Positions 30,391 to 60,810 of a DNA stretch of 64,000 nucleotides are shown one piece after another; the stretch's first letter is position 1; the number at the start of each line of letters is the position of its first letter. Source of the stretch: Corallium rubrum. Lineage: Eukaryota > Cnidaria > Anthozoa > Scleralcyonacea > Coralliidae. Location of the stretch: positions 2,330,876 through 2,394,875 of the forward strand of contig OZ036008.1 of assembly GCA_964035015.1 (NCBI GenBank). Reading direction: 5' to 3'. The notes below the pieces were generated by a model that was not told the DNA's origin, did not search any database, and worked only from the letters and a program-made list of their open reading frames with translations. The position numbers and the translations under genes were made by a program.

Positions 30391-30414
30391 CATGAAGAAA
30401 ACACAAAAGAAATC

Positions 30415-31743: not shown

Positions 31744-31764
31744 AGATAAAGTACGAGAAATACA

Positions 31765-31930
31765 GAGCTAGATAAAGTACGAGAAACACTGCACATCCTC
31801 ACGGATATAAGCGTTAAGTTGTCCCGAGAATATCTCGTGCACTTATGTTGGATATAACTCGCCTCCTAGAGCGGCGGACCGGAATCCCGAAGGTGCGAGT
31901 TCAAATCCCGCTAGCAGTGTAAGACATCAT
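31765..31930. repeat. Decayed tRNA-like unit (right arm)
   Basis: Mirror image of 26031-26195 with the same two deletions, so these predate the arm duplication. Confidence 0.85.
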
Positions 31931-31986
31931 GAAAAATGTTCTTAGGGTTTTATATCTAATATGATTTTATTTTATGTTCCCACGTT

Positions 31987-32220
31987 ATTTTGCCCATCCG
32001 CGTTTTATCCCCCATCCGCGTTTTATCCTCTATCCGCCTTTTCTCATCCGCGTTTTATCCTCTATCCGCCTTTTCTCATCCGCGTTTTATCCTCTATCCG
32101 CCTTTTCTCATCCGCGTTTTATCCTCTATCCGCTTTTTCTCATCCGCGTTTTATCCTCTATCCGCCTTTTCTCATCCGCCATCCGCATCCGCCATCCGCA
32201 TCCGCGTTTTATCCCTACCC
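31987..32220. repeat. Outer 32-bp tandem repeats, right arm
   Basis: Mirror of 25700-25975 with fewer units and fewer ATCCGC terminal variants. Confidence 0.93.
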
Positions 32221-32229
32221 TTAACCTTC

Positions 32230-33205: not shown

Positions 33206-33225
33206 ATGATGATTTTGGAGACGTT

Positions 33226-34000: not shown

Positions 34001-34011
34001 TTCTTTAACTC

Positions 34012-34905
34012 ACATCACGATAAACAACATACACTTCCTAACACGATCAAAGGTAAACAACAAGAACGTGAGCATGTCATGAAAGCATTGACGGCTAATG
34101 GGTACCCACAGACGTTTCTGACAGAAGTGGAAAAGAAACGTACTCTGAGAAAACAAAAAATACCATTAAGAGCTTGTTCGTGAGTTCTTTGAAAGAGTTG
34201 ACTCGAGTACAAAGGTTGACTACGCTGTTTTACCATACATTAAAGGCGTAACAGAACCTCTCAAACGCCTCCTCAAACCCCATGGCATCCGAGTCACAAC
34301 GAAACCTCTACGTACGCTTGAAAAAATGCTCCCTTCACCGAAAGACAGACCACCATCCGAAGAACAAACAAATGTAGTCTATCGTATAAATTGTGCCGAT
34401 TGTTCGTGGAACTACATTGGCGAGACGGGTCGAGCGTTCATCACACGGAAAAAAGAACACATGAGAAATGTCGAGAAATATAAAGCGGGCTCAAATATTG
34501 CGAATCATGCTTGGTCTTACGACCATAAAATTGATTTTAACAACAGCAAGATAATTGACAAAGCAAACTACCGCCACAGAGCTACACTGGAATCCTGGCA
34601 CACCGCGCTTACAACTAATGCTGACAATAATTCTATACATCTACCCGAACAATACCGTTTTTTATTGAAGAAATAGAACAATAGTTAGAGTTCACAGAGT
34701 ATCATATAGGCGGAACTGTCACATCCAGTTATTTGTTTGTCATTGTATTGTTAATCGTAGCGTAGGCGTATAGTCGGTAATTGTAAACCGTAGTCGTCTG
34801 CAATCATTGTTTTTTGTAACTACCCGTTGAAGGCTGCAGTCTGGCAGCCGAAAGCTCGTGATAAATAAATATTTTCAACCAGAGAACGTCTCCAAAATCA
34901 TCATG
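34012..34905 (+). pseudogene. Penelope-like element 3' part: GIY-YIG endonuclease (plus copy)
   Basis: Mirror neighbour of the minus copy. It starts slightly further upstream in the element (LTLPNTIKGKQQEREHVMKA-like segment), has a frame break near 34165, then reads VVYRINCADCSWNYIGETGR with TRKKEHMRNV, and a further break near 34655 (SIHLPEQYRF). It ends at AAATATTTTCAACCAGAGAACGTC with CATGTTTTAAAACAT just beyond. Several substitutions separate the two copies. Confidence 0.8.
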
Positions 34906-35335
34906 TTTTAAAACATGTAAAATTTTGCTCAAATGTGCTTTCAGAATGCAGGAAACGCCATTTCAGAGATCCAAATTTCAAAAATTTTCCGGGGACATAC
35001 CACCGGATCCCCCTAGAAATATGGGCCCACAGCAACTTTGACTAAGGTATCAAAATTCCTAGATCCGCCCCTGTCTACAGAAAAACAATCCCAATTTTGC
35101 TTTGTTAAGTCATTTTGCATTTCTCAAATAGTCGTAATAAGGATTTCATGATATAAAACCAGCTATATGCATGTATAACCGTGCTAGCCTGCACGGTGTA
35201 AACGGTCATGTCTTGGTGACTTAAACCAGTCACCTCGAATTCCGGTGACTTAATATGATTACATTTACAACCAATATTATTCACAAAATATTTACTACAA
35301 CTATGTAATATAGAAGTTAATAATTTTAAAAATTT
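34906..35335. other. Spacer with a short dispersed repeat
   Basis: 35073-35160 (ACAGAAAAACAATCCCAATT...TTTGCATTTCTCAAATAGTC) also occurs at 40060-40145 and 62627-62710. Otherwise nothing recognised. Confidence 0.4.
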
Positions 35336-35336
35336 T

Positions 35337-35972
35337 GTAATACCACCCGAAGAACAAGGAAATTTTTGCCATTACTTGAGGAATAAATTACATGAGTTTT
35401 ATACCGAATACTGGAAAGAGCAGATTCAACAAGGTGGAAATAATGGCAAATTAAGAGTCTTTAAAAAACTGAAAATAAATTTTGGCTTTGAAAAATATCT
35501 TTCTTCAATTCGCAACTTCAAACATCGTCAAGCGGTTACAAAATTAAGAATTTCAGCTCATAAATTACCTGTTGAAACTGGTCGATACGGAAATGTTTCA
35601 TACAGTGAAAGATTATGCAAACATTGTGATCTAAATGAGATTGGGAACGAACAACACCTTTTAATGTCATGCAGAAACACAAAGTTCGCCGATCTTAGAG
35701 TTAATTTTATGGAAATAAAGTCTCGGTAAAATAAATAACTCGTTTACTAAATTTAGCTACCAAGACCTTTTTATGTATGTCATTGCTATGCAAGACAAAA
35801 CAATTATGACTTTGGTAGCTAAATACTGTTTTAATGTTTTAACAAGTTTTGAAAGTCTATACAGTAGTTGAGCACGTAGTTCAGTTTATATGTTATATGT
35901 ATGTATCTTATATACCAAATCTGGTATTTATGTTGTTGTTTGAATAAATAAATAAATAAATAAATAAATAAA
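35337..35972 (+). mobile_element. LINE 3'-end fragment with (AAAT)n tail
   Basis: A frame at 35376-35729 reads RNFKHRQAVTKLRISAHKLP, then VETGRYGNVSYSERLCKHCD and GNEQHLLMSC. This HR-A-TKLRISAHKL...ERLC..C...E.HLL..C pattern is the usual C-terminal tail of many invertebrate LINE proteins. The fragment ends in ATAAATAAATAAAT at 35942-35972, a LINE-type 3' tail. Confidence 0.75.
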
Positions 35973-36403
35973 TTTACACTAGAGCAAAAGTTTCCGGATT
36001 CGTAAATGTTTCCGGATTCACTTCGTACCGAGTATTTGCGGATTCGTTAGGCGTTTACACTACAACAGTATTCGCAGATTCGGCCCTACACTAAACTCAA
36101 GATTCTTTAATTCAGTTAATATGTTGACCAACAGTTGGTTCCACCGCAACCTCACATGACTACGAGCGGAAGAGCATCCGAATTAAACGGAATAACCGTT
36201 TACACTGTGTATTGTCTTGGATTCAAAAGTATTCGGATACGAAGTTTCTATATTTTTTCCGGATTCGGAAATCTCCGGAAACGTGATCAAACCGGAAAGT
36301 TTTTATTCCGGATTCATTCTTTTGTGTGTAAATGGCAAAACGAATCCAGTACTAAAACGTTCCGGATTCGTCACGAATCCGAAATCTTTTGCTCTAGTGT
36401 AAA
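35973..36403. mobile_element. 431-bp inverted-repeat element (MITE)
   Basis: Ends TTTACACTAGAGCAAAAG and its mirror, continuing with TTCCGGATTCG. The interior is rich in further CCGGATTCG / CGAATCCG motifs. It sits directly at the LINE tail. No clear target duplication, no coding capacity. Confidence 0.75.
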
Positions 36404-36410
36404 CAGGGTC

Positions 36411-36874
36411 TACACGCGTAAAAACGCACAAGTGGTCAGTTGTTCAACGTTGTTAACAGGTGTGAACAGTGTTGTGCTGCACCCATGACCAAGTTGTCAA
36501 CAAGTTGTTCACTTATAGTTCGAACAACTTGTTCACGGATAAATCAACAGTCATGAACAAGTTGTTCCAACAGCACATTTTTTATAGCCACGTTGTTCGC
36601 ACATGAGACAACATGTTGTAACAGCATGACGAAGTAACAACGATGAACAACAATGTTACAACAATTGTGAACATGACTGGTGTATCAACACGTCCTTCGG
36701 TTGTTACAACATGCGTGAACAACGGTTGTTGTTTCATCAAGCAGTAACAACATGATGAAACAATGATGAACAATATTGTTAATTCATCAATGTTGTTCAC
36801 ACATGATAACAACGTTGTTACGGCATTGTTCAGGCAACAATGCTGTAACAACTTGTGAGATTTTTACGCGTGTA
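36411..36874. mobile_element. 464-bp inverted-repeat element rich in TTGTTACAAC motifs
   Basis: Ends TACACGCGTAAAAA and its mirror, followed by CACAAGT-G. The interior is crowded with GTTGTTC, AACAAC and TGTTACAAC motifs in both orientations, so it can form many alternative hairpins. It lies 7 bp from the preceding element. Confidence 0.75.
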
Positions 36875-37091
36875 ATTGACCGTACCGAAAAAGATTGCGA
36901 CTTGTACATTTAACCACAATCCATTGCGTGTAGTAAATATTGTTTCTTGCAGAATTATTGGAAGATATGGTTTTAAAACGATCAGCTTTGGTATAGCATG
37001 ATAAACAATGCTTAGTTGTTATTTGAGCTGATTTGAGGTCGCAAAGCATTGTAGTTAAATGTACCGCCGCCATCTTTTCGGTACCGTCAAT
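36875..37091. mobile_element. 217-bp inverted-repeat element (MITE)
   Basis: Ends ATTGACCGTACCGAAAA and its mirror (one mismatch), continuing in a TGTACATTTAAC block. It directly abuts the preceding element, making three MITEs in a row. Confidence 0.7.
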
Positions 37092-37216
37092 TGTTAGATC
37101 CATTAGTTTAATCCCAACTATATTTAAAACTGTTACAGGCGTCCTTAATTTCCTATCCAGACTATAACAATAACAGCGATACAGGGAAATGCTATGCTAA
37201 TACTCCTACTGTAAAA

Positions 37217-38258
37217 ATGAAAAGGTTAAAAAGAGCCCTAAACTATGAAAAAAAATACGAGAAGTTATGTCGTGGACCATGGCAAACTAATTATGAAAAA
37301 CTTCACAAAAGCATTCTAAAAACATCGAAAGTCAAACAATTCTTAGTGTTCAAATGCTCTTCGGCTGGCTGGGAAAATCGTATTCGCGCGCTGTTAAGTT
37401 CATTTATTTATATTTAGCTGTAATTTCCAAGCGTGCCTTTTTATAATAGATTCTCCAAAACCGAGCTAGTCCTCTTGAAAAATATTTGGAAACAAAATCC
37501 ATTAAATGGAACCACCACATAAATACTTCAGGATTATCGATTAGGTTCCAAAATCCACAGTATCGTCCACTCGGAAATGGCTGGAATAATACGGATTTTC
37601 GAGAATATTTCAACCACTCCGTAGAAGGAATCGAAAACTATGGTGGAAAAGTCTTTGTAAATGAGAATCCCAAATACAATTTACCTCGTTAGCCAAACCG
37701 ATTTTTATTTTTTGGTTGCGGTTTTCATTTTTTGTTCAAGAAATCAAAATACTTAATTGGAAAAACGTCTTGCGCAGAGAAAACGTCAACTGGGATTTGA
37801 TAAGAAATATCGTTCTTGGAATCCACATTCGACGAGGCGATGCGGGAGGATTATTGGCTTGGACTAAAGTAGATATAAGAACTTCGAAAATCAAGGACAC
37901 TGATCGTTACTTTCGCTGTGCTGAGAAAATAGACAAACGCATAAGAAAAAAGTATCAAACAAAGAAGATAATTTTGTTTTTGGCTACGGACTCAATGGAA
38001 ATTAAAAAATATGCCAAGAGAAAATATTCGAATAGAGTAAAACAATTGTATGGTCCAATTGAGCACGTTGGACATCCGAAAAAAGGAAACGAGGATGCTG
38101 ACCACTTGTCCATGTTCCTTGACTTTTTTCAGTCAGACTTTCGTCTTTTTACCACGGATTCGACGTTTGGTGGTGCACTAGGCAATGACAATGCAGGAGA
38201 TTCAAAATACGAACATAATAAAACTAGATGTGTTTTGCCACCATTACTGGAAAGATAA
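37217..38258 (+). pseudogene. Fucosyltransferase-like gene, disrupted
   Basis: Three consecutive frames make one protein of about 340 residues. Part 1 has QFLVFKCSSAGWENRIRALL. Part 2, after a frameshift and two stops (about 37410-37450), has PLEKYLETKSIKW and GIENYGGKVFVNENPKYNLP. Part 3, after another shift near 37715, has NIVLGIHIRRGDAGG, KIILFLATDSMEIKKYAKRK, HLSMFLDFFQSDFRLFTTDS and TFGGALGND. AGWENRIRALLS and the HIRRGD motif are hallmarks of GDP-fucose-dependent glycosyltransferases (GT11/GT23/GT37-like), which act in the Golgi. There is no intron-like break, so an old retrocopy or a decayed single-exon gene is likely. The last 180 codons are still open. Confidence 0.65.
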
Positions 38259-38294
38259 CTGGACGAAAATCATTCACGAGCATTAGACAATTAG

Positions 38295-38296
<2 letters not shown>

Positions 38297-38361
<65 letters not shown>
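38297..38361. repeat. (TA)n microsatellite
   Basis: About 32 TA units, followed by two 39-bp direct copies of the type CTATAATAGTTCGTTCGAAG + TTCGTTCGTTCCTATA (38363-38440). Confidence 0.95.
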
Positions 38362-38364
<3 letters not shown>

Positions 38365-40195
38365 TATAATAGTTCGTTCGAAGTTCGTTCGTTCCTATAT
38401 GACTATAATAGTTCGTTCGAAGTTCGTTCGTTCCTATAGCCGGCTAAGCGGCATGAGAGCTGAAAATTAGTCCACAGAGATAAGTGACATAACTCGGGCC
38501 GGCGAGTAAAATAAGAGTAAGCCAGACCAACAGTTACCATCGTTTGTTGGGTAGAAGAAGCACTCAGTGAAGAACTTGATCATATGAAACCGGAAACGGT
38601 ATAAACAAACGATCACGCTGTTTGACACTGCACGGACACACAAAATCGTTCGATTTTACTTAGGAAATTATGAATTCGAATTCGCTTTGGAAGGAACAAC
38701 CATCAATTTACCTTCGTGGGCAACAGAACAGGTTTCCGACTAGCATTTCGGCAAGAAAACGACGTTCGAGCGATGAAACATCAAATCACGTTATATGTAT
38801 AAAATCATTCGATTTTGAAGTAATAGTTCAAATACGAGACGGAGGACAAAGTCCGAGTGCTTTTTGAAAAGGTGAGCCAAAGGCGAGCCTTTTTAACTAT
38901 GAACGAGGGCTTTGAAATCCCGGTAAAGTCCGACGTCGAGTATTTTGAACTGACTTCTCAAAATCAAAACTCCGAAAATGCCTCTGAAACGTAATATAAT
39001 TTGCCTTATTTCAAAGTCCCAAGACTTTGAAAACGTATTTTGCATTATTTCAAAGTACTAGTACTTTTCCTCCGATTTCAAAGCACTGATTAAACATTAA
39101 TTTCGTTTGTTTTTGGTTCATGAATTATTAATGATTTCGGAAAGTGGGAAATTCCCTCAAGTCATGTTGTTACTTCTAAGCAATGCCACTGAAGATTAAT
39201 TAAGTTTTGTGGGGTTATGCAATAACCAAGGTTAACAGCTAGGTAACCAGGCGTTGTTCGTTATATTGATGCAGACGTAGGTCGGGGGTGGTCATTGAGA
39301 GACTGGTAACGACAAGCAGACAGACGTACATTCTGTTGCTCGGAAAACTTTCTTTTTTCTTCTTCTTCCTTTACACACCACTTGTCTGGGCCCTTCAGCC
39401 AATTTACATTGGTGTGATAGGTGCAAGCTATCCCGAGTGGGGTGGTCAGTTCAAGATATCACCGCCTCGGATCTTAACCTGAATCTAAATACCACAGTGC
39501 GCTCCCAGGCCCCCTCGGTCTACAGCTTGCACCCAACCAACCAAATGGGTAAGTACAAGATGAACGAAGATGTTAACTTTTATTTATACCCGTATATCAG
39601 AAAATTAATTCATAATAATACTCCCAAATTACAGAAACCAAATATAGCCCTTAATTGTAATGTAGATCTTGTTACAGTTATTTTTTGAGACTAAACAAGC
39701 ACATGCCAGTATATAAAACTGTTGTGACACTAAAATGTTTAAATCAGTCAGCGTAATTAAACTAAATTATCCCGAAATTTTTTTCATGTTAACATCTTCA
39801 CGAACACCGCTTGTTCAATGCATCAGAGAGTACCTAGTGAAGATAAAACATGCTTACGTCAGTTAATACAACCACTGAATGACGAGCAACGTGTTGTACG
39901 TACACATGTAGTGCATGTGGTTCGTTTGCCAGCTTGGTGTACCAAGGGGCTGTTGATACGAGGCGGGCTGGCCCGATTACCAGGCTGATTTTATGTCACG
40001 AAAATCGTTCTTTGACTACAAAAAGGAATTATAATACTCCGTGTGCTATATACCTACAGAAAAACAAATTCAATTTTTCTTCGTTATGTGATTTTGCATT
40101 TCTCAAATAGTCGTAATAAGGTTTTTGAGACATAAAATCAGCCAGATTATGATTTCGTAAATAAGCTCGTTGTTTGTTTACACTCTTTACGTTTC

Positions 40196-40262
40196 TCTCT
40201 GACGAAGGGCCTTCGCTCGAGACGTTAGACTCCTATGTTGTTTCTACACTGCCTACGCAGCA
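40196..40262. repeat. GACGAAGGGCCTTCGCTCG motif repeat
   Basis: Carries CTGACGAAGGGCCTTCGCTC followed by GAGACGTTAGACTCCTA and TTTCTACACTGCCTACG, the same sequence that forms the arms of the hairpin at 58965-59150. It lies where copy B of the duplication has a LINE fragment. Confidence 0.6.
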
Positions 40263-40329
40263 CGCTACTTTTATTACATCATATGAACACAGCCCATTGC
40301 AGGCGTTTGGTAGACGTACGTCAATTTCA

Positions 40330-40425
40330 AACACTCCGAAGTATATTTCTGAGTCCCAAACAGCGATTACATGCAGGTTCGACCCCAGTCTGGAGTTTAT
40401 GGATATTTGAGCTTAACGAACGTCT
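40330..40425 (+). repeat. tRNA-derived SINE-like sequence (copy 2)
   Basis: B-box GCAGGTTCGACCCCAGTCTGG and the TATTTGAGCTTAACGAACGTC tail as in copy 1. Compared with 63170-63290, the inner 40 bp (AAACAGCGATTAC...CCAGTCTGG) is in the opposite orientation. Confidence 0.6.
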
Positions 40426-40430
40426 ACTAA

Positions 40431-40980
40431 TATATATACACTTAATGTCTGCTCCCGAGGGAAACAGTTAGTTTTGTTTTCGCGAGAGTCTTGATATTTC
40501 CTGAGACGAAGTCGAGGGAAACATCGAGACTCGAGGGAAAACGAAACTAACTGTTTCCCGAGGGATCGGACATTAAGTGTTTTGTTATATAGCTTGAGTT
40601 TCGCTGAATAATTTCGACGTTTATGAAGGGAAAGTACACAAAAGACAAACGCAAAGACTTACCAAAACATTTCGCCTGGCTCCGTATTAAAATTTCACTT
40701 CAACCAAACAAATATGATACATTTCTGCAGTTAATCTTCACACATGCTTTGAAGACCTATAAATATTCTTTTTTCCGTACCAAACAAGCTTTTGTTTTTT
40801 GGATGCCGTGAAGAGTTCAAAGTTCTAGCGCGCAACAATTGAAAACTTATTGACTGAGCAGGCAACAAGTTCTCAATTATTGCCCCCTCGGTAGATTGAA
40901 ATTTAGCTAAGGTCATTTGACCACAAACCAACCCAATGACAGCCATCGTTGCATCCAGTGAAACTCTAGCTATATAACAA
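40431..40980. mobile_element. 0.55-kb inverted-repeat element (copy 1 of 2)
   Basis: An insertion relative to copy B of the duplication, between GTCTACTAA and AGGTCTATTA. It carries CACTTAATGTCTGCTCCCG, several GAGGGAAA / TTTCCC dyads, and ends CTAGCTATATAACAA. A 62-residue frame inside (KHFAWLRIKISLQPNKYD) is shared with the second copy at 48445-49019 but resembles no known protein; it may be chance. Confidence 0.75.
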
Positions 40981-41341
40981 AGGTCTATTATAAATAGCTT
41001 ATTTTGAATACTTCAATATAACAGCAAATAAAAGTTCAAATGAAAAAATATTTTGGCATTCAATGAGTATTCACGTTACATAGAATCCATACCAGTAATA
41101 TCATGCAATATATATTTGTGTTTATAAGCACTTCGATTTCTTTTTTTGATTTTTTTTTTCGAATTTATTTCTCCGTTTTTGTCCCTTATTTCATCTTTCT
41201 TTGACCTTTTTTGTGCTGATCTAAAAATATATTTGAGCCTAATGGTCCAGTGGTCCGCTATTTTCCCACCTCCGTTCTGGCGGTATGTCATTTCTGGAAA
41301 TGCAATATCATGTTATTTTCTAACAGTTTAAAAATACTTAC

Positions 41342-41737
41342 ACCACGGGAATACCCTGTTGTATGCAGTGCATCCGCTCAAACCTGGAACATATCGAACA
41401 GCTTTTGGTGGACGAGGATAATACCATGGACTTAGAGCCATTCCTGTCTGTCTATGCATCAAGCAATCTGTATTGTGGTCAATATACCATTTACTGGCGG
41501 CGGCACCGTAACAGTTGTCTGTGAGGACCAATTGCAGGTTTGTGTTTGAAATGGGGTTGATGCATTTCCCGGTTGCAACATCCTGAAGGCCCTCATTGGT
41601 TAAGTAGTAAAAAGGAGTCGCGGGACGGTTATACTGCAAGAGATCCAATTTGCCGGAAATTCCATAACGGGATAAGTTGCCATAAAGATTCTCGCTTGAT
41701 TTAATAAAACACTTTGCTAGATAGGGTGGAGGTTTTC
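41342..41737 (-). CDS. Lectin-like secreted protein, ricin-B-like module exon (copy A)
   Basis: A 396-nt exon with an acceptor (TTTTTACAG at 41738-41743) and a donor (GTAAGTATT at 41336-41341), both phase 1, so the module is symmetric as in shuffled extracellular domains. It encodes PPPYLAKCFIKSSENLYGNL, QDVATGKCINPISNTNLQLV, LTDNCYGAAASKWYIDHNTD and CLMHRQTGMAL. GKC(I)NP...L-L-DNC...KWYID is the repeat pattern of beta-trefoil (ricin-B-like) carbohydrate-binding domains; this identification is tentative because QxW is replaced by KWY. It joins in phase to the exon at 47843-48123. Further exons downstream (left) were not found, so the C-terminus is missing. Confidence 0.65.
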
Positions 41738-41964
41738 CTGTAAAAAGGTAAATAAAATAAATAGTTGACCATTAGACATAGCCCAGTGTTTTCGTATTTT
41801 ATCGGGAGTCTTCAACACACAACAATTTCTCAAAGTGTCTATGAAGTAAAAAAATATTGTTGGCTTCTTTTTTCATTGTTGTAGTGAACAGAGCTAGCGG
41901 CATGGCATTCATCTAAAATATCATTTGAATTCGACATATAGCCAAAGTCATAAACTTTCAAAGT

Positions 41965-42575
41965 TTGCCATGGCTGTTGGCCGAGTCTAGGTTTCGGCCC
42001 GTTTTCTTATTCCTTTTTAGGTGTCACGATCTTGAATTGCATTTTTTAATTCCGCTAATATTCATACTTCCAGAATATCTTTTACATCGATTACAGAATG
42101 TTCAATATGCTTCGGCGAGTTTTGTCCTTGGCCACTATGTCAACTCGATATCTGACATTGTCAAACAAGGTTGGCTCCCAATCCGCGAGCGTCGAGATTG
42201 GCATTTACTTCAACAAGTACACAAGGCATTACATAGTGATTACTGGCCATCTTACCTAAAATTGGAAACGAAAACTAACACGCGAGTTTTGAGATCGGGA
42301 TCAGCAACAAAGCTGACTGTTCCACTAATAACTGGAACTTTTCAAGACTCGGCGGCTGCTAAAATTTTTAACATATTACCTCCTGACATCAGAGATGAAA
42401 GTAATTTTAACATTTTTAGAAGCCAAAGTAAAGCATTCCTGCAAGAACACCTTGATCAAAAGGCAAAGCTGTTCAACTTTTTGTCCAACTCCAAAAGTGA
42501 AAGTAGCAAAGAACTCACAACATGCCTCACGACCTCATTCAGTCCACTCAGTCACACGGCTAACAACTCACCGGA
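41965..42575 (+). pseudogene. LINE reverse-transcriptase C-terminal fragment
   Basis: Reads LQNVQYASASFVLGHYVNSI, then KQGWLPIRERRDWHLLQQVH and KALHSDYWPSYLKLE, then AAKIFNILPPDIRDESNFNI and EHLDQKAKLFNFL. This QN-A-F---GWLP--ERR-WHLL--VHKALH...FN-LPPDIR pattern is the common LINE C-terminal tail. It is 5' truncated and followed by an (AAT)n tract. The 41965-42050 part (CTAGGTTTCGGCC, GTGTCACGATC) is shared with 7090-7120 and 10230. Confidence 0.8.
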
Positions 42576-42576
42576 A

Positions 42577-42630
<54 letters not shown>
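42576..42630. repeat. (AAT)n microsatellite
   Basis: About 18 AAT units directly after the LINE fragment. Confidence 0.95.
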
Positions 42631-42631
<1 letters not shown>

Positions 42632-43645
42632 ATTTATTCAGCATATCCACGGAGTGGCTCTTCATCTGAAAACACTAACTACATACAAATAATAAAGAAT
42701 AAGATTAGAATATTACAGAATTTTACTAGACTATATTATATTAGATATATTACATGGGCGAAATGAAAATTTATTAAAATGACTGTTTTAGCTTGTTAAC
42801 GACGTTGTTGGTAGATTTTGAAAGTGCAGTGCTCAGGCTGACTTTGTAGTTTATAAACAGCGATCAGATTTGGCTGACAACTGTCGTGATCGTAAATGTG
42901 TTCACCAGTGTGTATGCCCCACATTCAGCCTTCGATTCAGGCTCGAGTAGCCCGAGTGAGCGCCTGACCCAGGCGTCTTGTTTCTTGTAAATGCAAACGA
43001 GAATGTGTGGACTGCATTACCAGAATTTGGGACAAGATGGCGGCGCGCGTGCGTATTAAGGACCATAATAATGGAGATTCTCAACAGTAAATAATCAGGA
43101 GAACACATAATAATTCAAATTTTGCTTAAACGGTGACATATGTCTTCTTTGCCCGACTCCATTTGACTTCAGCATGGACTAAGGAACAGTTATAACTAAA
43201 AAACATTTGCTTACTTCGACGACAAAATACTTCCTTAGCTCGTCTTATTTTTGCACTGAATAAAGTGCCACTATCCATAGTGTTAGCCATAGTAATCTTT
43301 GTAAACAGGTGCTAGAAATTGGGCAAATTGACCAACAACGTTACGGGCGATGCGAAGTGCCCGACTCGCGGACCATTCGGCATGAGTCAGTCTTACTTCG
43401 AGAGCACATAAAAGTCCTCATTTGTCCTTAGCATAGTACTTCCAAAAACGTTTGAACTTGCTTGATTTCAGTTCTTGTGGTCGTTTACAGGTTGTTTATA
43501 CATACATACATGCAAGATTTAGGCAAATTCTAAAGAACTCAATGACCTGAATAATGAGAAACACTAGAATACAGTAGAATCACACGCATTAGAAATTCTA
43601 GAATATATAATTATATTATTAGGCGAATATAGCCGCTGACCGAGA
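42631..43645. other. Spacer with a family-R end block
   Basis: 42945-42985 has AGTAGCCCGAGTGAGCGCCTG and GGCGTCTTGTTTC as at 23600-23640. Otherwise no supported feature. Confidence 0.35.
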
Positions 43646-43649
43646 GCAG

Positions 43650-45785
43650 CGGCACAAATGACCCCAATTTCTGGTGATGGAACCTGGATGGGGTAGGCAT
43701 CAATTAGCCACTTCAGAAACTGCAGGGACTGGGACTGTTTTGGGGGAACTCGCTACCGATTTTGCCATTTGGCCCTGTTTGAATTTGTAATATTTTCAAA
43801 TTGATTGTGAATTTCACTCTTGTTCGTAATAATTCAACTACAATATGAATTGTACGTTTCAAACGTCGAATTTTTCATGCGTCGAATACAATTTGTTAAT
43901 TATAAGTGCATGATAAGTTCGACGTTTGAATCAATTAAATTCGACCGTTTTGATTAAATGCGACATGCGAATCAAATTCGACTGCTTAGGTCGAATAAAA
44001 CAACCTTGATGCGACTTCGATTCAAACGTCAAACTTTCCATGTGTCGAATGTAATGCATAAATTATTTTAATGTATAATAATTCCGATACACTTAAATGA
44101 CATGCGCAAACGTTGATTTCGCGAGGTGGAAACTTGCAGTTCGCGAAAGGTTTTCTTGAATCGGACTTCTTAATAAGTGTTCCACACTATGACCACCATC
44201 AAGGATTTTGAATTATTTGGCGACAAGAGCGAATGGATGCTTATGGTTGCATTTCTGCCTGCTATAATTAATAAAAGCAGATCTTATTACCATGTATTGT
44301 AAAGCACGTGTCATCATTATTCGCCGTCGTTTTGACTGTTGAATATATTGTAAATATTAATTTGCTTTTGGTCAACTTTCGAGTTGGACTCCTTTGCTTT
44401 CGCCATGTTGTTATATGGATGATCATTTTAAATTATCTGATTCGACCACATTAAATTTGACGTATGAATCAAATGTCGAATAATTTGGGTCGACCTTAAT
44501 TGGTATTATATTCGACACATGAAAAATTCGACGTTTGAACCAGGCCTAACATTTCTAACCGGTACGAATTTGGCCGGTTTGAGTTTGAAACAGTTCAGAT
44601 TGCTACAAATTTTGTAGCACGGGACATGTATTTGCTATATTTTCAACTCGCAATGTACTTCAACTCGTTATTTATGTTGTAATCTTTTCGGGTCGCTACC
44701 AATTTGAGATTTCTGTTGCAGTTTGTCTTTGACTTCGCTATATAACTCGCCACGGAATTTGTTGTTTCTTCAGTGCTATTTTTCAACTCGGTGGGAACTG
44801 CGTCGCTGGTTTCCCAAATATTTCAGTCTCTACTCTCCAGGTATTTTGTCATTCAGCGCGCTTATAATATTCTTAGCCAGCTGACTGCGAATTTCAATTC
44901 ACCGTTTGTATCACTAATATTTCAACCCGAGTCTTGGTGCGAATGTTGCAGTTAGTGTTTGCTATAATATTTTCAATACAGTTCCAGCCACTAGGAATTT
45001 TACCGTTTGTGTTTGTAGCCTACAGGAATCATAGCGAGTTAGCACAGTTCAAATATAAACGGCAAGATTCATGAAATATTTCAAATCACAAAGTCAAAGA
45101 GTGAAATTCGTAGTGAGTTGGAATCATAGCAAATACAACGGCGAAATATGAGGAGCAAAAAACAGAGAATATATACACGTAAATATCTAGGAATACAGAA
45201 ATTCATAGCGGGCTGAAGATATTACAGATTCAAATGGCAAAATATTAATAACTTATAGCAGGTGACAATCTGCGAATCTAAGCACAAGTCCACATGGCAA
45301 ATGAAGGAATGATGTAGTGAGTTGAAAAGATGAGTAGATGATTAGTACGTACAAACGGTGAAATTTGTAGCGAGTCAAAATAGTAAAATATAGTTATAAT
45401 CACATAGCGAAGTCCGTATAGTCACAGTCGACAGGACATACGGACGGAGAAACATGTAGCGACTTACATATACCAAAGATAAACGAACTAAACGAGAAAA
45501 TTCGTATACCCATTAAAACAATTAGGTTAAAATATTACGAATACAGACCGCAAATTCATATTGGACTTTAACTATTACGAATACGAATGAAATCCGCGAG
45601 CAAATTAAAATATAACAAACTTAACGAGGCCACATGGCAAAATAAGCGAGTTGAAAACAAAGCGTCCCCCAAAACAGACCCACAATTCCGCGGGAGATGC
45701 TAATTCGTACCCAGTCCCTGCAGTTTCCGAAGTGGCTAATTATCTGAGCGCCTCCAGAAATTGAAGCCGGAAGTTACGCCCATTG
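43650..45785. mobile_element. 2.1-kb inverted-repeat element with mirrored AACTCGCTA-type subterminal arrays
   Basis: The ends are mirrored: left CAATTTCTGG...AATTAGCCACTTCAGAAACTGC, then AGGGACTGG...CTGTTTTGGGGGA; right TCCCCCAAAACAGAC...CCCAGTCCCTGCAGTTTCCG, then AAGTGGCTAATTA...CCAGAAATTG. Inside, many loose copies of CAACTCGCTA(C)-AATTT lie left of about 45000 and their mirror AAATT-GTAGCGAGTTG to the right, so each half holds a degenerate array of opposite sense. Another element (43848-44545) is nested in the left half. No transposase frame. Confidence 0.6.
43848..44545. mobile_element. Nested element with TTTCAAACGTCGAA termini
   Basis: Starts near CGTTTCAAACGTCGAATTTT and ends TTCGACGTTTGAACCAGGCC. 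AAATGCGACATGCGAATC, TTAAATTTGACG and GTCGAATA motifs fill both ends in mirrored fashion. The right terminus GGCCTGGTTCAAACG fits PIF/Harbinger-like ends. The left end lacks the GGCCTGG part, so the exact boundary and duplication are unresolved. Confidence 0.5.
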
Positions 45786-45789
45786 ATGG

Positions 45790-47070
45790 TAAACCAAGTA
45801 CTTCATGTAACTAAATGCTATGGCAGCATGGACCAAGCGAGAATATTTATTTCAAGAATAGAGGTTTTTACAAGCTTGGTAAGTATTTTAAGTCTGATCG
45901 TAGTCAATTTTTAAATGTGATGTACTATAGACGTTGTTGGAATGATGATAAATTTTTGAAAGCCTCTTAATAGTCTTTGGACAATTTCATATTCAGACGA
46001 GGTCATTTGTATGGCCAACATGTCAAACCAAAATTCGAAAGAAACGAAGATAAAGCACTACCGAAGAGTTTATAGAGCTACGGTAAAAATATAGAGCAGT
46101 CGCTCTCAGTAATCACGAACATATCACACTGCCTCTCACCACGAGGACCGAAGCAAAGCCCAATTTGATTGAGTTAATAGTGAATATGACCATGCACATA
46201 TCTAAATTATGTATGTTTAAATTATGTACAAGATATGTGAATTTGAAAAAATTGTATAGAATAGAACCCTGAAAATAGTAGTATGTTAATCCAAAACTTT
46301 GTCGCATCGGAGGACTTCGTGATATGGCGGACGAAATATTGTAAACACAATCGGATTAAAATACTTCCATCGTTCAAACTGACAGCACCAAAAAATTCTG
46401 AGCTTTGATTGGCCCTGATGTAATCGGTATTGGTGTACAATTGGGTATTGTAATCGATGTATTGGTAACAGCACACACTACAGGTCAGTGGTTACACAAA
46501 AAAGCTAATATACACACACATCTGCGCAGATACAAAAAGGCGATGGGAACGAGGTTACAAAAAGACAGAACAATAGTGCATGGTTAGCAAGTGGTTAGCG
46601 TATACGCTTTTCACTTTTGCGACGGTGCAGAATTAGGGCCCAGTTTAGACGTTGCTCTTGTGTTGAGTCAAATATAATTATTTAGCTTAAATCTACCACA
46701 AATGCATCACAAGTCCAACGTAGTGAAGACAGTGTAAGACAAATCTAAGTCAAACTCGGTCCAAATCTATGAGAGCTTCATGGATTATCTAACACAAGAG
46801 CGGCGTGGGTTCTTATGATGGATTTTAGTCGAGTCAAATTCAATTAATTGACCAAGGGATATAACATGTGGCCATTTTGTCATCAATTTCTGGTAATGAG
46901 ACGTCGCTCTTGTGTCGAGTCAAATCCAACTGTGAAAGGTTCGACTAAATCCATCACAAGTGTGGCAAGCCTTTCATCAGATCTGGGATGGATTTGGTTT
47001 AAGTGATTGATTAGTTTATGCGAAGAACGTCAAGCCAACAAAACCAAAATGGTGCCAGTCAATAGAACTC
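45790..47070. other. Spacer; repeat with GACGTTGCTCTTGTGT motifs
   Basis: No gene recognised. 46640-46960 contains AGACGTTGCTCTTGTGTTGA and AGACGTCGCTCTTGTGTCGA in direct orientation, with ACACAAGAGCGGCG between them in the opposite sense. This is probably an inverted-repeat element with a second copy of one end. Confidence 0.35.
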
Positions 47071-47072
47071 GC

Positions 47073-47803
47073 CACAAGGCCGCCGCTTAAGGGCTAATTT
47101 ACATACAATCCTTATAAAATCGCATCTAATTTTGAACAGCAAATATATAGAGGAGAAATGTTAAAATGACATACTAATTGAGGGTCTCGCCTACTATTTG
47201 CCGACCTCGCTATTTATAATTAAGCAACAGCGATTTTCAAATTATTCACTTCCTTATTTCTTTAAATCAGGTATACCTACGATCGGCCAAATAACTATAT
47301 CTCTCGAGCTATCGTTTGTCAGTGTTTGAGCCTCCATCAATCATGGTGAGTTCAAAATACCCATTTTATTGTTGTCATTATAAGTCGGGCAGTTGTTAGA
47401 TTAGAGGTATACAACTTCAGCCAAGTTGGTCAATATGTAATCTATTACATGCAAGATAAAGGTTCCTCTATCAACTCTCGAACACTTGACCAAAGACAAT
47501 TTTGAAAGTATCAAACAAAATCCTACCACAATCCAGTGGCGCATGACCTACCTATTTGTTCACTATTTTCAACACAATTTGGGCGGATAGTAGATATACC
47601 TGATGAAAATAAATAGATGACTGAAATCTGAATGCCATTGGATAATGGTTGTTGTTTAGATTAGCAGGTCGGCAAATAGTTGACGAGCTACTCAATAAGC
47701 AGAATTCTCACTTTAATATATTCGCCTTATATATTTACTGTTTAAAATGGGACGCCAACTTCTAAGGAATACATGTAAATTGGCTTTCAAGCGGTGGCCA
47801 TTT
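47073..47803. mobile_element. 0.73-kb inverted-repeat element (MITE-like)
   Basis: Left GGCCGCCGCTTAAGGGCTAA with TTTACAT, AACAGCAAATATATA and CTACTATTTGCCGACCTCG; right GCAAATAGTTGACGAGC, TATATATTTACTGTTTAAAA and GTAAATTGGCTTTCAAGCGG are mirrored through about 150 bp per arm. It lies immediately downstream of the donor of the lectin exon at 47843. Confidence 0.65.
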
Positions 47804-47842
47804 TGTCATTAATTTTTGGTAATGAAACATGGCCTAACTTAC

Positions 47843-48123
47843 CCAACATTTGGCAACACCTCAACTTGTCAAGATTGTGAAGCCAGTCTGTGCCATTATC
47901 ACGATAGAGTCCAACGACAAAGTAACCAGCTTTTGTGCACACGCTCCAGCCTGCTTTATCAAATTTGTGTCGAATATCTTCATCATAACACTGGCCATAA
48001 CTCAAGGGGTGGCGTCGTGGCTTACAGCAACGTCCTTGTTCGATATTGTGTAAGTGATTTCCTTTGCTTCGAAACAAACCATTTAAAAAGTAACCAGTCG
48101 GGCAAACACTCCAAGATGAACGT
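47843..48123 (-). CDS. Lectin-like secreted protein, exon with two Cys-rich GW...CC repeats
   Basis: A 281-nt exon bounded by TTTTCTGTAG (acceptor) and G|GTAAGTTAGG (donor). It encodes the rest of one repeat, RSSWSVCPTGYFLNGLFRSK followed by GNHLHNIEQGRCCKP, and a whole second repeat, FDKAGWSVCTKAGYFVVGLY followed by RDNGTDWLHNLDKLRCC. The repeat pattern is W-S-C-x5-Y-(F/I)-x-G-(L/F)-(Y/F)-R-...-L-x-N-(I/L)-...-C-C. I know such repeats from secreted invertebrate proteins of unclear function and give no family name. Phase 2 in and phase 1 out match the neighbouring exons. Confidence 0.75.
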
Positions 48124-48444
48124 CTACAGAAAATTAAATAAAAGAAATCTATAAATTAGGAACTCTGTGAATTAGGAACTCTGTGAATTACAAACAGACG
48201 AGAAGTTCGAAAAACTCGAATGTAATTATTAATGCTCATTTTTAGAAGGTTTTTTTATGATACAAAAATTTTGAGGATCTTTACTTGTTTCGTTGTTTGT
48301 CTGTTTGGTCTGTTTGTTTTCCCTGTTGACCTGTCTTACATGAAAATACCGAAAGTATATAAGAATGTTTAATAAACTTATTATTTCACAGTTTATGAGG
48401 TATATGCTAAAACAAATATTTTTTACAGCTCGGTAAACATCCAC

Positions 48445-49019
48445 TATTGTTATATAGCTAGAGTTTCACTGGATGCAACAATGACTGTCATTGGTTGGTT
48501 TGTGGTCACATTACCTTAGATAAATTTCAATGTCTACCGAGCGGGCAATAATTGAGAACTTATTGCCTGCTTGGTCAATAAGTTTTCAATTGTTGCCCAC
48601 TTTCCCGCTAGAACTTTGAAGTCTTCACGGCATCCTATAAACAAAAGCTTGTTTGGTAAGAAAAAAAGAATATTTTTTATAGGCCTTCAAAGCATGTGTG
48701 AAAATTAACTGGAGAAATGTATTGCTGTTCTTTTGTTCTGAGACTCATTTGTTTGGTTGAAGTGAAATTACGGAGCCAGGCGAAATGTTTTGGTAAGTCT
48801 TAGCGTTTGTCTTTCGTGTACTTTCCCTTGATAAACGTCGAAATTATTCAGCGAAACTCAAGCTATATAACAAAACACTTAATGTCTTATCCCTCGGGAA
48901 ACAGTTAGTTTTGTTTTCCCTCGAGTCTCGAGTTTCCCTCGACTTCGTCTCGGGAAATATCAAGACTCTCGGGAAAACAAAACGAACTGTTTCCATCGGG
49001 AGCAGACATTAAGTGTATA
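48445..49019. mobile_element. 0.57-kb inverted-repeat element (copy 2 of 2), intronic
   Basis: The inverted counterpart of 40431-40980 (TTATATAGCTAGAGTTTCAC ... GAGCAGACATTAAGTGTATA). It lies within the 950-bp intron between the two repeat exons of the lectin gene. Confidence 0.75.
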
Positions 49020-49073
49020 CTATTTACCTGCACCTCAGTGAATATACTTGTTATTTATTATAATTTAACGTAC

Positions 49074-49314
49074 TTGTCGAGGCTAATCCACCAGTTGGCC
49101 TTTACACACACCCCAGTTTGGCTTTGATACACAGCCGGAGTGGCCGCGCAGCATTTTGCTTTTTCAAGTCGGAAAATTCCATCGCTGCTCCAACCACCCA
49201 ATTGATTTCGGTAAAATCCCGTGATGTAACGCTGGTTGTTATTGCAACTTGACCAACCTTGTTTGTCAAAACTGGTCCACCAATTAGCATTGAAACAAGT
49301 CTGGTGTCGAATGA
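49074..49314 (-). CDS. Lectin-like secreted protein, first GW...CC repeat exon
   Basis: A 241-nt exon with a pyrimidine-rich acceptor (TTCTTACTCTAG) and a GTACGT donor. It encodes CFNANWWTSFDKQGWSSCNN, then YITGFYRNQLGGWSSDG and IFRLEKAKCC (one full repeat), then CVKANWWISLDK, the start of the next repeat. The split codon AA|A joins to the exon at 48123 and restores WWISLDK-RSSWSVC, aligned exactly with WWTSFDKQGWSSC. The splice is therefore supported by both phase and internal homology. Entry phase 1 fits the signal-peptide exon at 53287-53329. Confidence 0.78.
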
Positions 49315-49479
49315 CTAGAGTAAGAAGAGTCGGATTAAAATGTATATATTCCACACTCGAATTTCCCTTCACCCAAAATCATTAGAACATGCTAAATCGA
49401 GTGAATAATGTAATCGAGTTAAATGCCCAATATTACTTATAATATACCCAATTCTCTCCTGGCATTACCACCTTATTAT

Positions 49480-49675
49480 ATATACAGAACTCGCGATCAA
49501 GCTCTGGGCAATGCCCTCCGTGGCATTGCACTAGAATCGCAAGGTCGTGGGTTCAATTCGAGCCGGAAGGCCTGTGTAGTTGCATTTTTCGCAACTGGTC
49601 CGGGTTTGGTCTTAAAATGTACATATTTTCCACACTAGAATTTTCCTTCACCCAAAATCTTTAGAACATGTTGAA
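49480..49675 (+). repeat. SINE-like sequence with B-box
   Basis: Contains GGTCGTGGGTTCAATTCGAG (B-box GGTTCAATTC). The tail AAAATGTACATATTTTCCACAC with TTCACCCAAAATC also occurs at 49333-49383 on its own, in the same strand sense. It is tRNA-derived or tRNA-like; no full cloverleaf. Confidence 0.5.
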
Positions 49676-49679
49676 ATTA

Positions 49680-50035
49680 TATATGTCTATATCTCTGTCA
49701 TTGCTTATCGACTGCGTGGGAGGGGGATGTTACAAGGGAATGGGGGAGGTATTCAGTTATATCTAGCCAAAAAGGGTGTGTGAGAAATTTCTAGTAATGT
49801 TTTCTTGCTCAGTTGGCCCAGAACAAAATCTAACAAAACTATTCCTAGCATTCATTTCTGCCTATCAAGACACACTAAGTGAATAAATTTTGAAGACTTC
49901 AATTCAAGCAATAGCTGCCTGTCTCAACTATGGCCCAGAAGACACAATTAGCTAGTAGAATTAACATCAACATTTATATAGAGTAGACTGAACAACAACA
50001 TCATTTAATAATCAGCGTAACTTGGAGCCTATCTG
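49680..50035. other. Unassigned spacer
   Basis: No supported feature. Confidence 0.3.
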
Positions 50036-50044
50036 TGTAAATTT

Positions 50045-50700
50045 AACCCTTTACTGCCCACAGTTGCCTTTTGGCAACTCATTAATTTTACTCTGGCCAA
50101 CGCCCCGAAACCTGGCCAATAAAGGGCTTTACTGCAGGCCACAGTTGCCTTTTTGCAACTTATTAATTTTACTCTGGCCAACGCCCCGAAACCTGGCCAA
50201 TAAAGGGCTTTACTGCAGGCCACAGTTGCCTTTTGGCAACTTATTAATTTTACTCTGGCCAACGCCTCGAAACCTGGCCAATAAAGGGCTTTACTGCAGG
50301 CCACAGTTGCCTTTTGGCAACTTATTAATTTTACTCTGGCCAACGCCTCGAAACCTGGCCAATAAAGGGCTTTACTGCAGGCCACAGTTGCCCTTTGGCA
50401 ACTTATTAATTTTACTCTGGCTAATGCCAGACATACCCACCCAACATCATCATTTATATAGAGTAGAAACAACAACATCTGTGTAAATTTAAGCCTTTAC
50501 TGCCCCCATTGGCCTTTCGGCAACTCATTAATATAATTTTACTCTGGCCAACGCCAGACGATTTTACTCGTCAGAGGAGAGCTCCCCGAAACCTGCCCAA
50601 TAAAGGATTAAAAACTATCTCCTCTAATCCTTTACTGCAGGCCACAGTTGCCTTTTGGCTACTTATTAATTTTACTCTGGCTAACGCCAGACATACCCAG
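50045..50700. repeat. 81-bp minisatellite
   Basis: Five nearly identical units (GGCCACAGTTGCCTTTTGGC ... CCAATAAAGGGCTTTACTGCA) at 50045-50445, then two diverged and partly rearranged units to about 50700. The 27-codon length gives open frames in both senses, which are not genes. Each unit has an AATAAA inside CCAATAAAGG. Confidence 0.93.
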
Positions 50701-51934
50701 CCTAGATTTCAAGTCGTCTGCCGTTGGCCTATTATAGGTCAAACGACTTACTTTACAAGAGAGAAACTAAATTTCCACTTTAATTTGGGTCCGACTTAAA
50801 TTATATAATATTGACAGTTGGGTCAAAAGTCGAACTTGATCCTGTCAAATCGAATTCGGCACAAATAATTATCTATTGACTATACGCATGCTCTTATACT
50901 AAAATTCACACTATTTGGACGATTTCTGTCAATCCAAATACAATCAGGGGGTGTCTACAAGAGACAGGTGTCCCAGTAAATGTGTCCCCCCCAAAAAAAA
51001 TATGTCCCCCCAGGGACACATTTCCTAGGAAATATGTTCCCCTCATTTATACATGAGCCCCCACGATGAGCTTTAGCTCTTGGGGTTAATGTACTATTAA
51101 AATATTGTTTAAATAAAAAATAAAAAAAATTGTCCCCCCCCCCCTCAGAATGATTCCTTACAGGATAATTGATATACGTTTAATGTAGACAAAACTTTTT
51201 AAAAGTAAAAAATATATATTTCTGAAGGGTCCTACTAATTACTGTCCGAGACGGTATGCCTCTATATTAGAGGCCTTAAATAATAAAGAATAGATCGCAT
51301 GCACATTTACGGCACACCGCAAACTGCAGTTCGAAATCAGCAGTTAGCTGTTAGAAGTTAGGACAAGTTGTATGTTCAGACTGAAAGCTTCCGTTTGTGA
51401 TTTGCCGTATATAAGTATATTCGATTTATACTGAAAGGTCTCCCACGGCGTCATTGAAATGTTAATCGCAGTCGGCAATGATTAATTAATGTATTTGTTT
51501 AATCTTTTTTCTATTTTTGAAACCGAGTGCTTCGGAGAAAAATCCGTGCTGAAATAGTGTCTTTTTCAGAGTATGCCTGACCCAAAAACCAAGGTTTGTT
51601 TGAACGCTTTGAAATATCAGCTCAACGATGTTACAATCAATAAAAAAACGAAACTTGAACATCTATTTAACTAATAAATTGGAAATTCAGCATGACCATG
51701 ACCATGACCATGACCACCGACGAAATTGAAATTCTAATGCACTTCCGCGAGCTGGCATTCGGACGTTCTCTTTCACTATTTTGACACCAAAACTATCGAA
51801 TAACGTGGAACAGTCTGATAGCCATATGCACTCAGTAAGAGAAAATATCAGACGTTTACGAAATTGGACTTCGCAAAAAATGGAGGCGTATGAAAAGGAA
51901 GAGGTACACTATATATATGCACGGCACACTATAT

Positions 51935-51936
<2 letters not shown>

Positions 51937-51990
<54 letters not shown>
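51937..51990. repeat. (TA)n microsatellite
   Basis: About 26 TA units inside the 1.8-kb element. Confidence 0.95.
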
Positions 51991-51993
<3 letters not shown>

Positions 51994-52007
51994 GTGACGA
52001 GAAAGAA

Positions 52008-52118
52008 AATTTCGAGTTTAAGAATATATGCAGCCCAGCAAACACACACACAATATATGTGTGTGTGTGTGTGTGTGTTTGCTGGGCTGCATATTATATT
52101 CTTAAACTCGAAATCTTC
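52008..52118. repeat. Long perfect hairpin with CA/TG core
   Basis: CGAGTTTAAGAATATATGCA with GCCCAGCAAACACACAC is mirrored by GTGTGTGTTTGCTGGGC with TGCATATTATATTCTTAAAC, giving about 45-bp arms and a very short loop. Confidence 0.85.
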
Positions 52119-52793
52119 CTTCACCAAAGACCCTCGCTATTATTAAAATTTGCTGTCTGCTTTACGCCAAGAGCGTGTTGTCTCGAGGTTAATGAAGGGT
52201 TCCGCGTGAAACGTTAGTATTTCGTTGTCGAAATTCTCGGCAGCTCACCATTTTCTTGCTTTGTTATTAATATAATAGTGTAGTTTGCCGTTTTTCAAAA
52301 CACGGTATATACGGAAGTATTTATTATGCATTCACAAACGCAGTGGACGCCTTTTTTCAACGAGCGATGACTCTCAAAAGCGACCCGTATTGGTCATGCA
52401 TACTGGTGTACGTATATAGTAGCTGGGAGATAGATGATGCTGGCTTTGGCATGCATGTGCCATTCTTTGCCATTCTGGGGGTAGGTGATCAGGAATGGCT
52501 TTGCCATTCATGTGTTCCACCATCAAAACTTAGTGACAGTCCAAAGTTTTTATTAAATAAATAAGTTTATATATTGCAGTTTTTGTAAATATATATTTAG
52601 CTGTTATAATTTATTATTCAGAAATATATATTTTTTACTTTTAAAAAGTTTTGTCCACATTAAACGTATATCAATTATCCTGTAAGGAATCATTCTGAGG
52701 GGGGGGGACAAATTTCCGAAGAGGGGAACACATTTCCTAGGAAATCTGTCCAGGGGGGACACATTTTTGGGGGGGACATATTTCCTGTGAGAC

Positions 52794-53286
52794 CGGCCTT
52801 GAAACTATTTAGGCTTGGTTTTGCTGTTGCCTCAAGATTTGCATCAATTGCCTTACAGCTCGTGACCGCCGTAGAATCATTATATTTTATGTGGATTTGA
52901 CACCAATCCCATTTAAAACAACGTATTGAGTTTGAGAAGTCTAGCAGGCGATCTGAGATTTGGCCGGCGTGAACTGAATCTCAGGCCGCACTCATGAAAA
53001 CGATCTATACGGTAAAAACACTACAACCGACCCTAAATCAGTCAGGCCTGAGTTCGGTAGGTTTACATATAATAATGTAGTGATAATGGCGCAATTAATC
53101 AAGCATGTTTTCATCTCTTTGTTCTCCACGTATAGAATCTTGCAGTCAGATTGTTAGGACATTCTTTTCCAAATCTCATGCAACCAAATCAAGTTCAACC
53201 AAAATTTTGAAAATGGGTCGGTTCTCGGTCTTTCACGAAGTTACATTTCCCCGCGCACAAAGTTACATGAAAATATTTTTACTTAC
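52794..53286. other. Spacer downstream of the signal-peptide exon
   Basis: Intronic in the lectin gene model; no other feature recognised. Confidence 0.3.
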
Positions 53287-53329
53287 CATTAGCTGCTGTT
53301 TCGCGAATTGCAACAACCCAAATAATTTG
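53287..53329 (-). CDS. Lectin-like secreted protein, exon 2 (rest of the signal peptide)
   Basis: A 43-nt exon (acceptor TTTATATTTAG, donor G|GTAAGTAAAA) encoding QIIWVVAIRETAAN. Together with exon 1 it gives a typical secretory signal, with a hydrophobic core FILQIIWVVAI and a likely cleavage near TAA/N. It leaves phase 1, exactly what the exon at 49314 needs (G + TC = Val). Confidence 0.6.
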
Positions 53330-53418
53330 CTAAATATAAATTCAGAAATAAAAACCTAAATTAGGAATTGCATTTTCTCACAAAAAGGACAAAAAAGCAT
53401 TAATCTATCGTCTCTTAC

Positions 53419-53439
53419 CAGAATGAACATGAAGATCAT
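53419..53439 (-). CDS. Lectin-like secreted protein, exon 1 (start codon, MIFMFIL)
   Basis: Seven codons from the ATG at 53439 to a strong donor CTG|GTAAGAG. Phase 0 joins it to exon 2 across an 89-bp intron. The exon is supported by its TATA box about 100 bp upstream and by the hydrophobic continuity with exon 2. Such a short first coding exon should be confirmed by RNA. Confidence 0.55.
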
Positions 53440-53539
53440 CGTTGCAGAAATTTTCTAGTTCTTATAAAAAATCTTCTTCTGATCGTGTTGTGATGTCGAC
53501 CAGTTATGGAAAGAATTTTAGTCATAAATCGTGCACTTG

Positions 53540-53547
53540 TATATATA
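53540..53547 (-). promoter_or_regulatory. TATA box of the lectin-like gene
   Basis: TATATATA on the minus strand in a non-repetitive context, about 100 bp before the ATG at 53439. This predicts a start site near 53510 and a leader of about 70 nt. Confidence 0.45.
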
Positions 53548-60040: not shown

Positions 60041-60390
60041 AATTGTATATATATATATATATATGTAATGTTTACAACACGAGCGGCCGTGTTGTATTGA
60101 ATATACAATCACGAGCCGAAGGCGAGTCATTGTATATTCAATAAAACAAGGACGCGAGTGTTGTAAACAACTTGTGAAATGAATAAATAGTAAAAATCCC
60201 TTTGGGATATTGAGATGCTAATTAGTTACAAGCACTAGTGGTTGTATCAGAAGAGTATACATCCACTTGTGGTTGTAACTAATTAGCATCACTGGTTTTA
60301 GTTTGTATGGGGTTTACAGGGGTATACATGTGATGTAATTTCTGAAATTGGATTGGCTGCAAAACTCATGAATTATTAATGAATTTCACA

Positions 60391-60468
<78 letters not shown>

Positions 60469-60760
60469 TGTATAATAAACGAGCAGGAGTGTTTTATCAG
60501 ATGTAAAGATACGAGGCGAAGCCGAGTGTTTTTATATCTGATAAAACACGAACTGCGAGTTTATTATACGGCTTCAAAAACAAACCACTTGGTAAGTTGA
60601 TTGGCGCAGTTAGTTTGAAAAATAACCTTGTCTTAGCCGAGAAAATCAAAGCTAAAGTTTATGTAAATCAGGAGAAATCTTTATCACATATAAAGATACG
60701 ATACGGTCATGATTTTCTTTGGTGTCTTCCTCATGAATTGTTAATGAGTTTTTGAAATAT

Positions 60761-60810
<50 letters not shown>

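Follow-up and report, generated by a model that had tools for sequence, protein, structure and literature searches.

A Corallium rubrum gene predicted to pair the small-lobe triplet of biomphalysin-type toxins with a probable R-type lectin-like module

Introduction

Biomphalysin-type aerolysins carry at their N-terminus a head, the small lobe, which is thought to recognise the target, the large lobe being thought to lyse it (PMC8047071 and PMC12186885, in the portions of both papers drawn on here). In those same portions, the 2021 paper on biomphalysin describes the small lobe as structurally variable (PMC8047071), and the 2025 paper presents it as the conserved β-prism of biomphalysin-type toxins, predicted by AlphaFold to be disulfide-rich, with three four-strand motifs and six disulfides (PMC12186885). 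Chimera-type mytilectins combine an animal R-type trefoil with an aerolysin-like domain, an architecture that the accessible part of the source relates to toxins (PMC10744619). Among the papers listed from the open-licence PMC literature, none was recognised that deals with the small-lobe module outside biomphalysins and their kin.

Here, a gene of Corallium rubrum is described that appears to join this head to a module of a different kind. It lies on the minus strand of a window of 64,000 nucleotides, the window being the whole stretch of DNA that was analysed.

Gene model

The gene model starts with a TATA-like box at 53542-53547, a candidate identified by pattern match some 100 bases ahead of the ATG. 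The coding part of exon 1 (53419-53439) runs from the ATG through MIFMFIL, the start of a presumed signal peptide, to the donor CTG/GTAAGA, and exon 2 (53287-53329), which has an acceptor and the donor ATG/GTAAGT, encodes the remainder of the hydrophobic leader and ends in phase 1. Exon 3 (49074-49314, phase 2 end) encodes repeat A and the beginning of repeat B; exon 4 (47843-48123, phase 1 end) completes repeat B and adds repeat C. Exon 5, read as terminal (41331-41737), encodes the ricin-B-like module, and ends with NRVFPWCKYF ahead of a TAA stop at 41328-41330. In the preliminary description exon 5 ended at 41342, where a donor follows, the last complete residue being W.

All five exons of that description were found again on the minus strand with good borders (AG acceptors and GT donors), as were the intron phases of 0, 1, 2 and 1, and the joined frame is open over 327 codons. 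Its label of a six-exon gene does not fit, since only five exons were actually listed. The splice between 48123 and 49074 restores repeat B as had been claimed, and the spliced relatives are continuous across this junction. There are also ten open reading frames of relatives that begin in the middle of the repeat, and in these the similarity starts within a few residues of the same junction; they were picked by hand from the matches for that very property, and are illustrative rather than a sample. Using a generic donor matrix entered from general knowledge, introns 1-4 have donor scores of 5.12, 5.88, 2.30 and 4.59 bits, and the supposed donor after exon 5 has 2.06 bits. A filter for other single first exons, requiring that they begin hydrophobic and end at a strong donor, was applied between 49340 and 54500, and none passed. 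Intron 2, which separates exon 2 from exon 3, contains a tandem repeat (50058-50428; 81 bases, 4.6 copies, 97% matches).

On this model, which we hold with moderate confidence, the gene product would be a protein of 331 residues, consisting of a hydrophobic leader, one three-repeat unit with 12 cysteines and one R-type-lectin-like module with 6 cysteines in the terminal reading of exon 5.

The three-repeat unit and its relatives

The GW...CC repeats had been put at three to four; their number is three (A, B and C), all encoded by exons 3 and 4. The idea that they form an undescribed repeat is ruled out. Judged by sequence similarity, the triplet is homologous to domain I (the "small lobe") of biomphalysin, physalysin and the Nematostella aerolysin-like proteins. 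A search of the joined protein against about 5.8 billion proteins gave six relatives at E values well outside chance (E 1.7e-32 to 1.0e-149), including proteins of Paramuricea clavata, Xenia and Orbicella, and ordered A-B-C triplets are present in four of these six.

A profile search extended the family to 278 proteins at E <=1, the candidates being limited in length; 120 of the 278 are listed, and their partner domains were counted by hand. The aerolysin domain (PF01117) is found in 19 of the 120 relatives listed of 278, including records named biomphalysin and physalysin, whose N-terminal head is the same triplet. The other partners among these 120 of 278 are EGF (18), TSP1 (10, one of them also with a C-type lectin domain), PAN (3) and trypsin (2), with one case each of Ig, F5/8C and WSC and two other families. 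Octocorals, stony corals, gastropods, a hydrozoan and an anemone are the sources of the listed proteins, in which the triplet has no fewer than eight kinds of partner. None of the 120 relatives listed of 278 has PF00652 or PF14200, the two ricin-B families.

In the window protein the triplet had no Pfam match, and in the first six relatives it had none better than E 0.019. NCBIfam gave 0 families on the joined protein, and sequence searches of solved structures returned at best unrelated phage proteins (E 1 and 0.42). The triplet is bounded on both sides by phase-1 introns, at cumulative lengths of 64 and 586 bases. Flanking phase-1 introns are the classical condition for exon shuffling, so shuffling of the triplet is possible, which fits its many partners.

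It is necessary to consider whether exon 4 might be the last exon of a secreted protein containing only the triplet, with exon 5 belonging to another gene or transcript. Read past its donor, exon 4 stays open for about 20 codons, up to a stop that follows CCQMLGKLGHVSLPKINDKMATA, there is an ATTAAA at 47717, and the intron before exon 5 is long (6.1 kb). Moreover, in 63 of the 120 relatives listed of 278 no precomputed Pfam domain accompanies the repeats. Some of these relatives, for example P0113 and P0115, extend far beyond them into a C-terminal region of unclassified content. However, the exon 4 donor is good (TGG/GTAAGT), and so is the exon 5 acceptor, with matching phase. The open frame of exon 5 has no ATG upstream of its domain and therefore needs an upstream exon, and exon 4 is the nearest one detected. 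We consider such a separation of the two exons improbable, and exons 4 and 5 are taken as joined in what follows.

Predicted fold of the triplet

A structure model was obtained for the triplet of the Xenia relative P0023, which is 56% identical to the window triplet. It has 12 strands, and its pLDDT per ten-residue block is 91-98 over the triplet, with one block at 80. From this strand count and the published prediction for biomphalysin, in the part of the 2025 paper available (PMC12186885), the window triplet is predicted to be a β-prism. The comparison is one of strand count only, and known β-prisms match the model weakly: the matches to the PCSK9 C-terminal domain, Vip3A and the jacalin-related ZG16 are all weak, and may reflect only a common arrangement.

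When compared with viral structures, the P0023 model gave two matches at E <0.001, the proteins matched being those of Ostreococcus tauri virus OtV5 and Edafosvirus. Large DNA viruses of protists may thus contain the triplet fold. When viral contigs were scanned with the two modules, no sequence relatives appeared, and the OtV5 and Edafosvirus matches are unconfirmed by sequence.

The exon-5 module

The preliminary description called the second module ricin-B-like and trefoil-like. This label holds insofar as the ricin-B families are the top Pfam matches, but the scores are under the cut-off. PF00652 matches exon 5 with E 0.0023 and the tandem copy described below with E 0.0013 (18.6-19.3 bits, against a gathering cut-off of 29), and PF14200 is the second-best match for both (E 0.095 and 0.029). 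Of nine control sequences, made by reversal or shuffling, a single one had any Pfam match, to an unrelated family (E 0.029). Judged from the offset of the Pfam alignment, the 126-position profile falls on exon-5 residues of about 3-128, and the exon thus holds about one whole domain.

Compared with itself, exon 5 shows weak threefold repetition (shuffle fractions 0.30, 0.019 and 0.27). Q-x-W motifs are the mark of R-type lectin subdomains; by eye, those of exon 5 are degenerate (S-K-W, F-P-W), two expected positions being occupied by W and Q being absent. A protein search for homologues of exon 5 gave 15 candidates, none at E <=10, and no homologues were found among the 120 triplet relatives listed of 278, the solved structures or the viral contigs scanned. 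The structure model of exon 5, built from two near-identical sequences, has a pLDDT of 35.7, for which reason the trefoil remains probable only. Exon 5 is, then, a probable R-type (ricin-B) β-trefoil module.

The end of the gene

It had been claimed that at least a sixth exon must follow to the left. This is not forced: left unspliced, exon 5 reads CKYF followed by TAA at 41330-41328, and an AATAAA lies at 41164-41169 on the same strand, 159 bases past the stop. The tandem copy has the counterpart AATAAA at 63452-63457, 161 bases past its stop, so that FPWCKYF-TAA and then AATAAA are present in both copies of exon 5. On the minus strand there is roughly one AATAAA in every kilobase, and alone the motif is therefore weak evidence for a gene end. 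The terminal reading also gives the domain an even number of cysteines (6).

Alternatively, the donor at 41341 is used, making exon 5 an internal, symmetric phase 1-1 exon with further exons to the left. The donor GGT/GTAAGT is identical in both copies of exon 5, the exon up to this donor is 396 bases long, which is divisible by 3 and gives a 1-1 exon, and a candidate exon 6 of 92 bases with fitting phase and good borders is present at 39858-39949 (minus strand; SPWYTKLANEPHALHVYVQHVARHSVVVLTD). Nevertheless, this donor is the weakest of the gene (although its 2.06 bits are close to the score after exon 3), exon 5 is already about as long as the full trefoil profile, and a stop and AATAAA come next. 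A Pfam search of the same strand over 26301-41302 returned nothing but Extensin_1 and GLTT, where the sequence is repetitive. No homologue support was seen for the candidate exon 6, and its conservation is no higher than that of the adjacent intron sequence. We also considered an intron of 48 bases that would begin at 41341 and use the AG ending at 41294; in both copies it would yield FPW and an immediate stop, and would therefore hardly alter the protein.

We prefer the terminal exon 5, and with it the 331-residue protein, as about twice as likely as the reading with a sixth exon. Further exons are on balance unlikely but deserve serious consideration; they would leave the functional core unchanged, and the odds of this alternative overlap with those of our best explanation.

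Tandem duplication and other features of the window

A second, partial copy of exon 5 is present on the minus strand at 63621-63998, cut by the edge of the window. Its protein is 95% identical and its TAA stop is at 63618-63620. It belongs to a duplicated block of 720 bases (63281-64000, minus; counterpart 40979-41710), with 94.3% DNA identity, and a second part of the duplication is found at 61198-62721 (minus; counterpart 38576-40145; 85.8%). The offset is about 22.3-22.6 kb, and the upstream copy is truncated by the window edge.

The two copies of exon 5 differ by 10 substitutions in 380 positions and the flank by 17 in 338 (p = 0.12), so exon 5 is not significantly slower; gap columns number 0 in exon 5 and 16 in the flank. 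Four of the exon-5 differences are synonymous and six nonsynonymous (dN/dS about 0.41). The divergence is compatible with coding constraint, without proving it.

Elsewhere in the window, eight tRNA-Ser(GGA) genes are predicted at 18161-20117, five on the minus and then three on the plus strand; the spacing in either group is about 250 bases, and the genes form a tandem array with an inversion. The same elements are found in opposite orientation at 27000-27609 and 30357-30966, with a similar sequence at 60049-60770; these are probably a family of mobile elements. A 217-codon open frame at 33359-34009 (minus) has a weak, unrelated Pfam match (E 0.0073), and from its appearance by eye we take it to resemble the GIY-YIG endonuclease of Penelope-like elements.

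Function and origin

The presence of a toxin head raises the question of whether the protein is itself a pore-former or venom component like biomphalysin, since snail and anthozoan aerolysin-like proteins have the same N-terminal head. However, the aerolysin domain (PF01117) was not found in the joined protein, or in three frames of the 6-kb intron 4 and of the 15 kb downstream (26301-41302), and precomputed PF01117 is absent from 101 of the 120 head relatives listed, some of which have unclassified C-terminal regions. Such an activity is thus very improbable. Given that no pore-forming lobe was found, recognition, opsonisation or agglutination would be expected rather than lysis.

The preliminary description saw here a protein for recognition, secreted and rich in Cys, whose second module is lectin-like, and this is a fair reading of the sequence. 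The most likely function is indeed that of a secreted two-module recognition protein. The protein would be exported, each module would bind a glycan or glycoconjugate, and two unlike binding modules could cross-link the surfaces of microbes, mucus or prey, or keep hold of them. As to its origin, exon shuffling probably joined the triplet to the exon-5 module, the locus being later duplicated in tandem. Taken as a whole, with somewhat more belief than doubt, we propose a triplet plus an R-type-like module, together forming a pore-less secreted binder that arose by exon shuffling.

Comparison with known systems

The architecture had been called undescribed. As regards the pairing this stands within the family searched, where it is absent from the 120 relatives listed of 278; it does not stand for the triplet, which is itself of a known kind. 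Both modules are thus of known kinds, by the sequence comparisons made here, and what is unseen among the 120 relatives listed of 278 is their combination. The closest triplets include those of Paramuricea clavata P0001 and of Xenia P0002, P0007 and P0023 (56-64% identical). P0001 and P0023 have nearly the Cys spacing of the window triplet. P0001, P0002 and P0007 contain two or more triplets, with EGF in P0002 and P0007, whereas P0023 contains a single one, and no ricin-like module was detected in any of these four.

Compared with the biomphalysin type, the window triplet is 51% identical to the aerolysin-bearing P0055 (Dendronephthya) and 48% to P0056 (Nematostella), although the Cys spacing of P0056 and of P0092 departs from it in the later repeats. 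The biomphalysin small lobe is predicted to have twelve strands, as in the P0023 model (PMC12186885, in the part available). The window gene has introns, whereas biomphalysin is called intronless in the text consulted of PMC8047071, and the window protein has a ricin-B-like module in place of the aerolysin lobe, which was not found. With respect to R-type lectins (PF00652, PF14200), exon 5 is about one domain long and these families are its best and second-best Pfam matches, below the cut-off. The likeness to mytilectins is architectural, with no sequence link shown: these pair the trefoil with an aerolysin-like domain, the window protein with a predicted β-prism. Mytilectins do illustrate that the R-type class also serves as a toxin head.

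A broader interpretation, which we offer tentatively and consider rather doubtful, is that the head by which animal aerolysin-like toxins of immunity bind their receptor is a mobile extracellular module, largely pore-less in cnidarians, and here fused to an R-type-like module to give a two-headed recognition protein. If this is true, non-toxic anthozoan uses of the triplet may predate its pairing with a pore-forming domain. Taken by itself, the gene in the window contributes modestly, with one further architecture. The family search adds to the two biomphalysin papers that the small lobe is one coherent module, with no matching Pfam model in the proteins scanned; and because this module is present across the listed cnidarian and gastropod proteins, the origin of the toxin head and its ligand can be tested in proteins that, like the present one, are not toxic.
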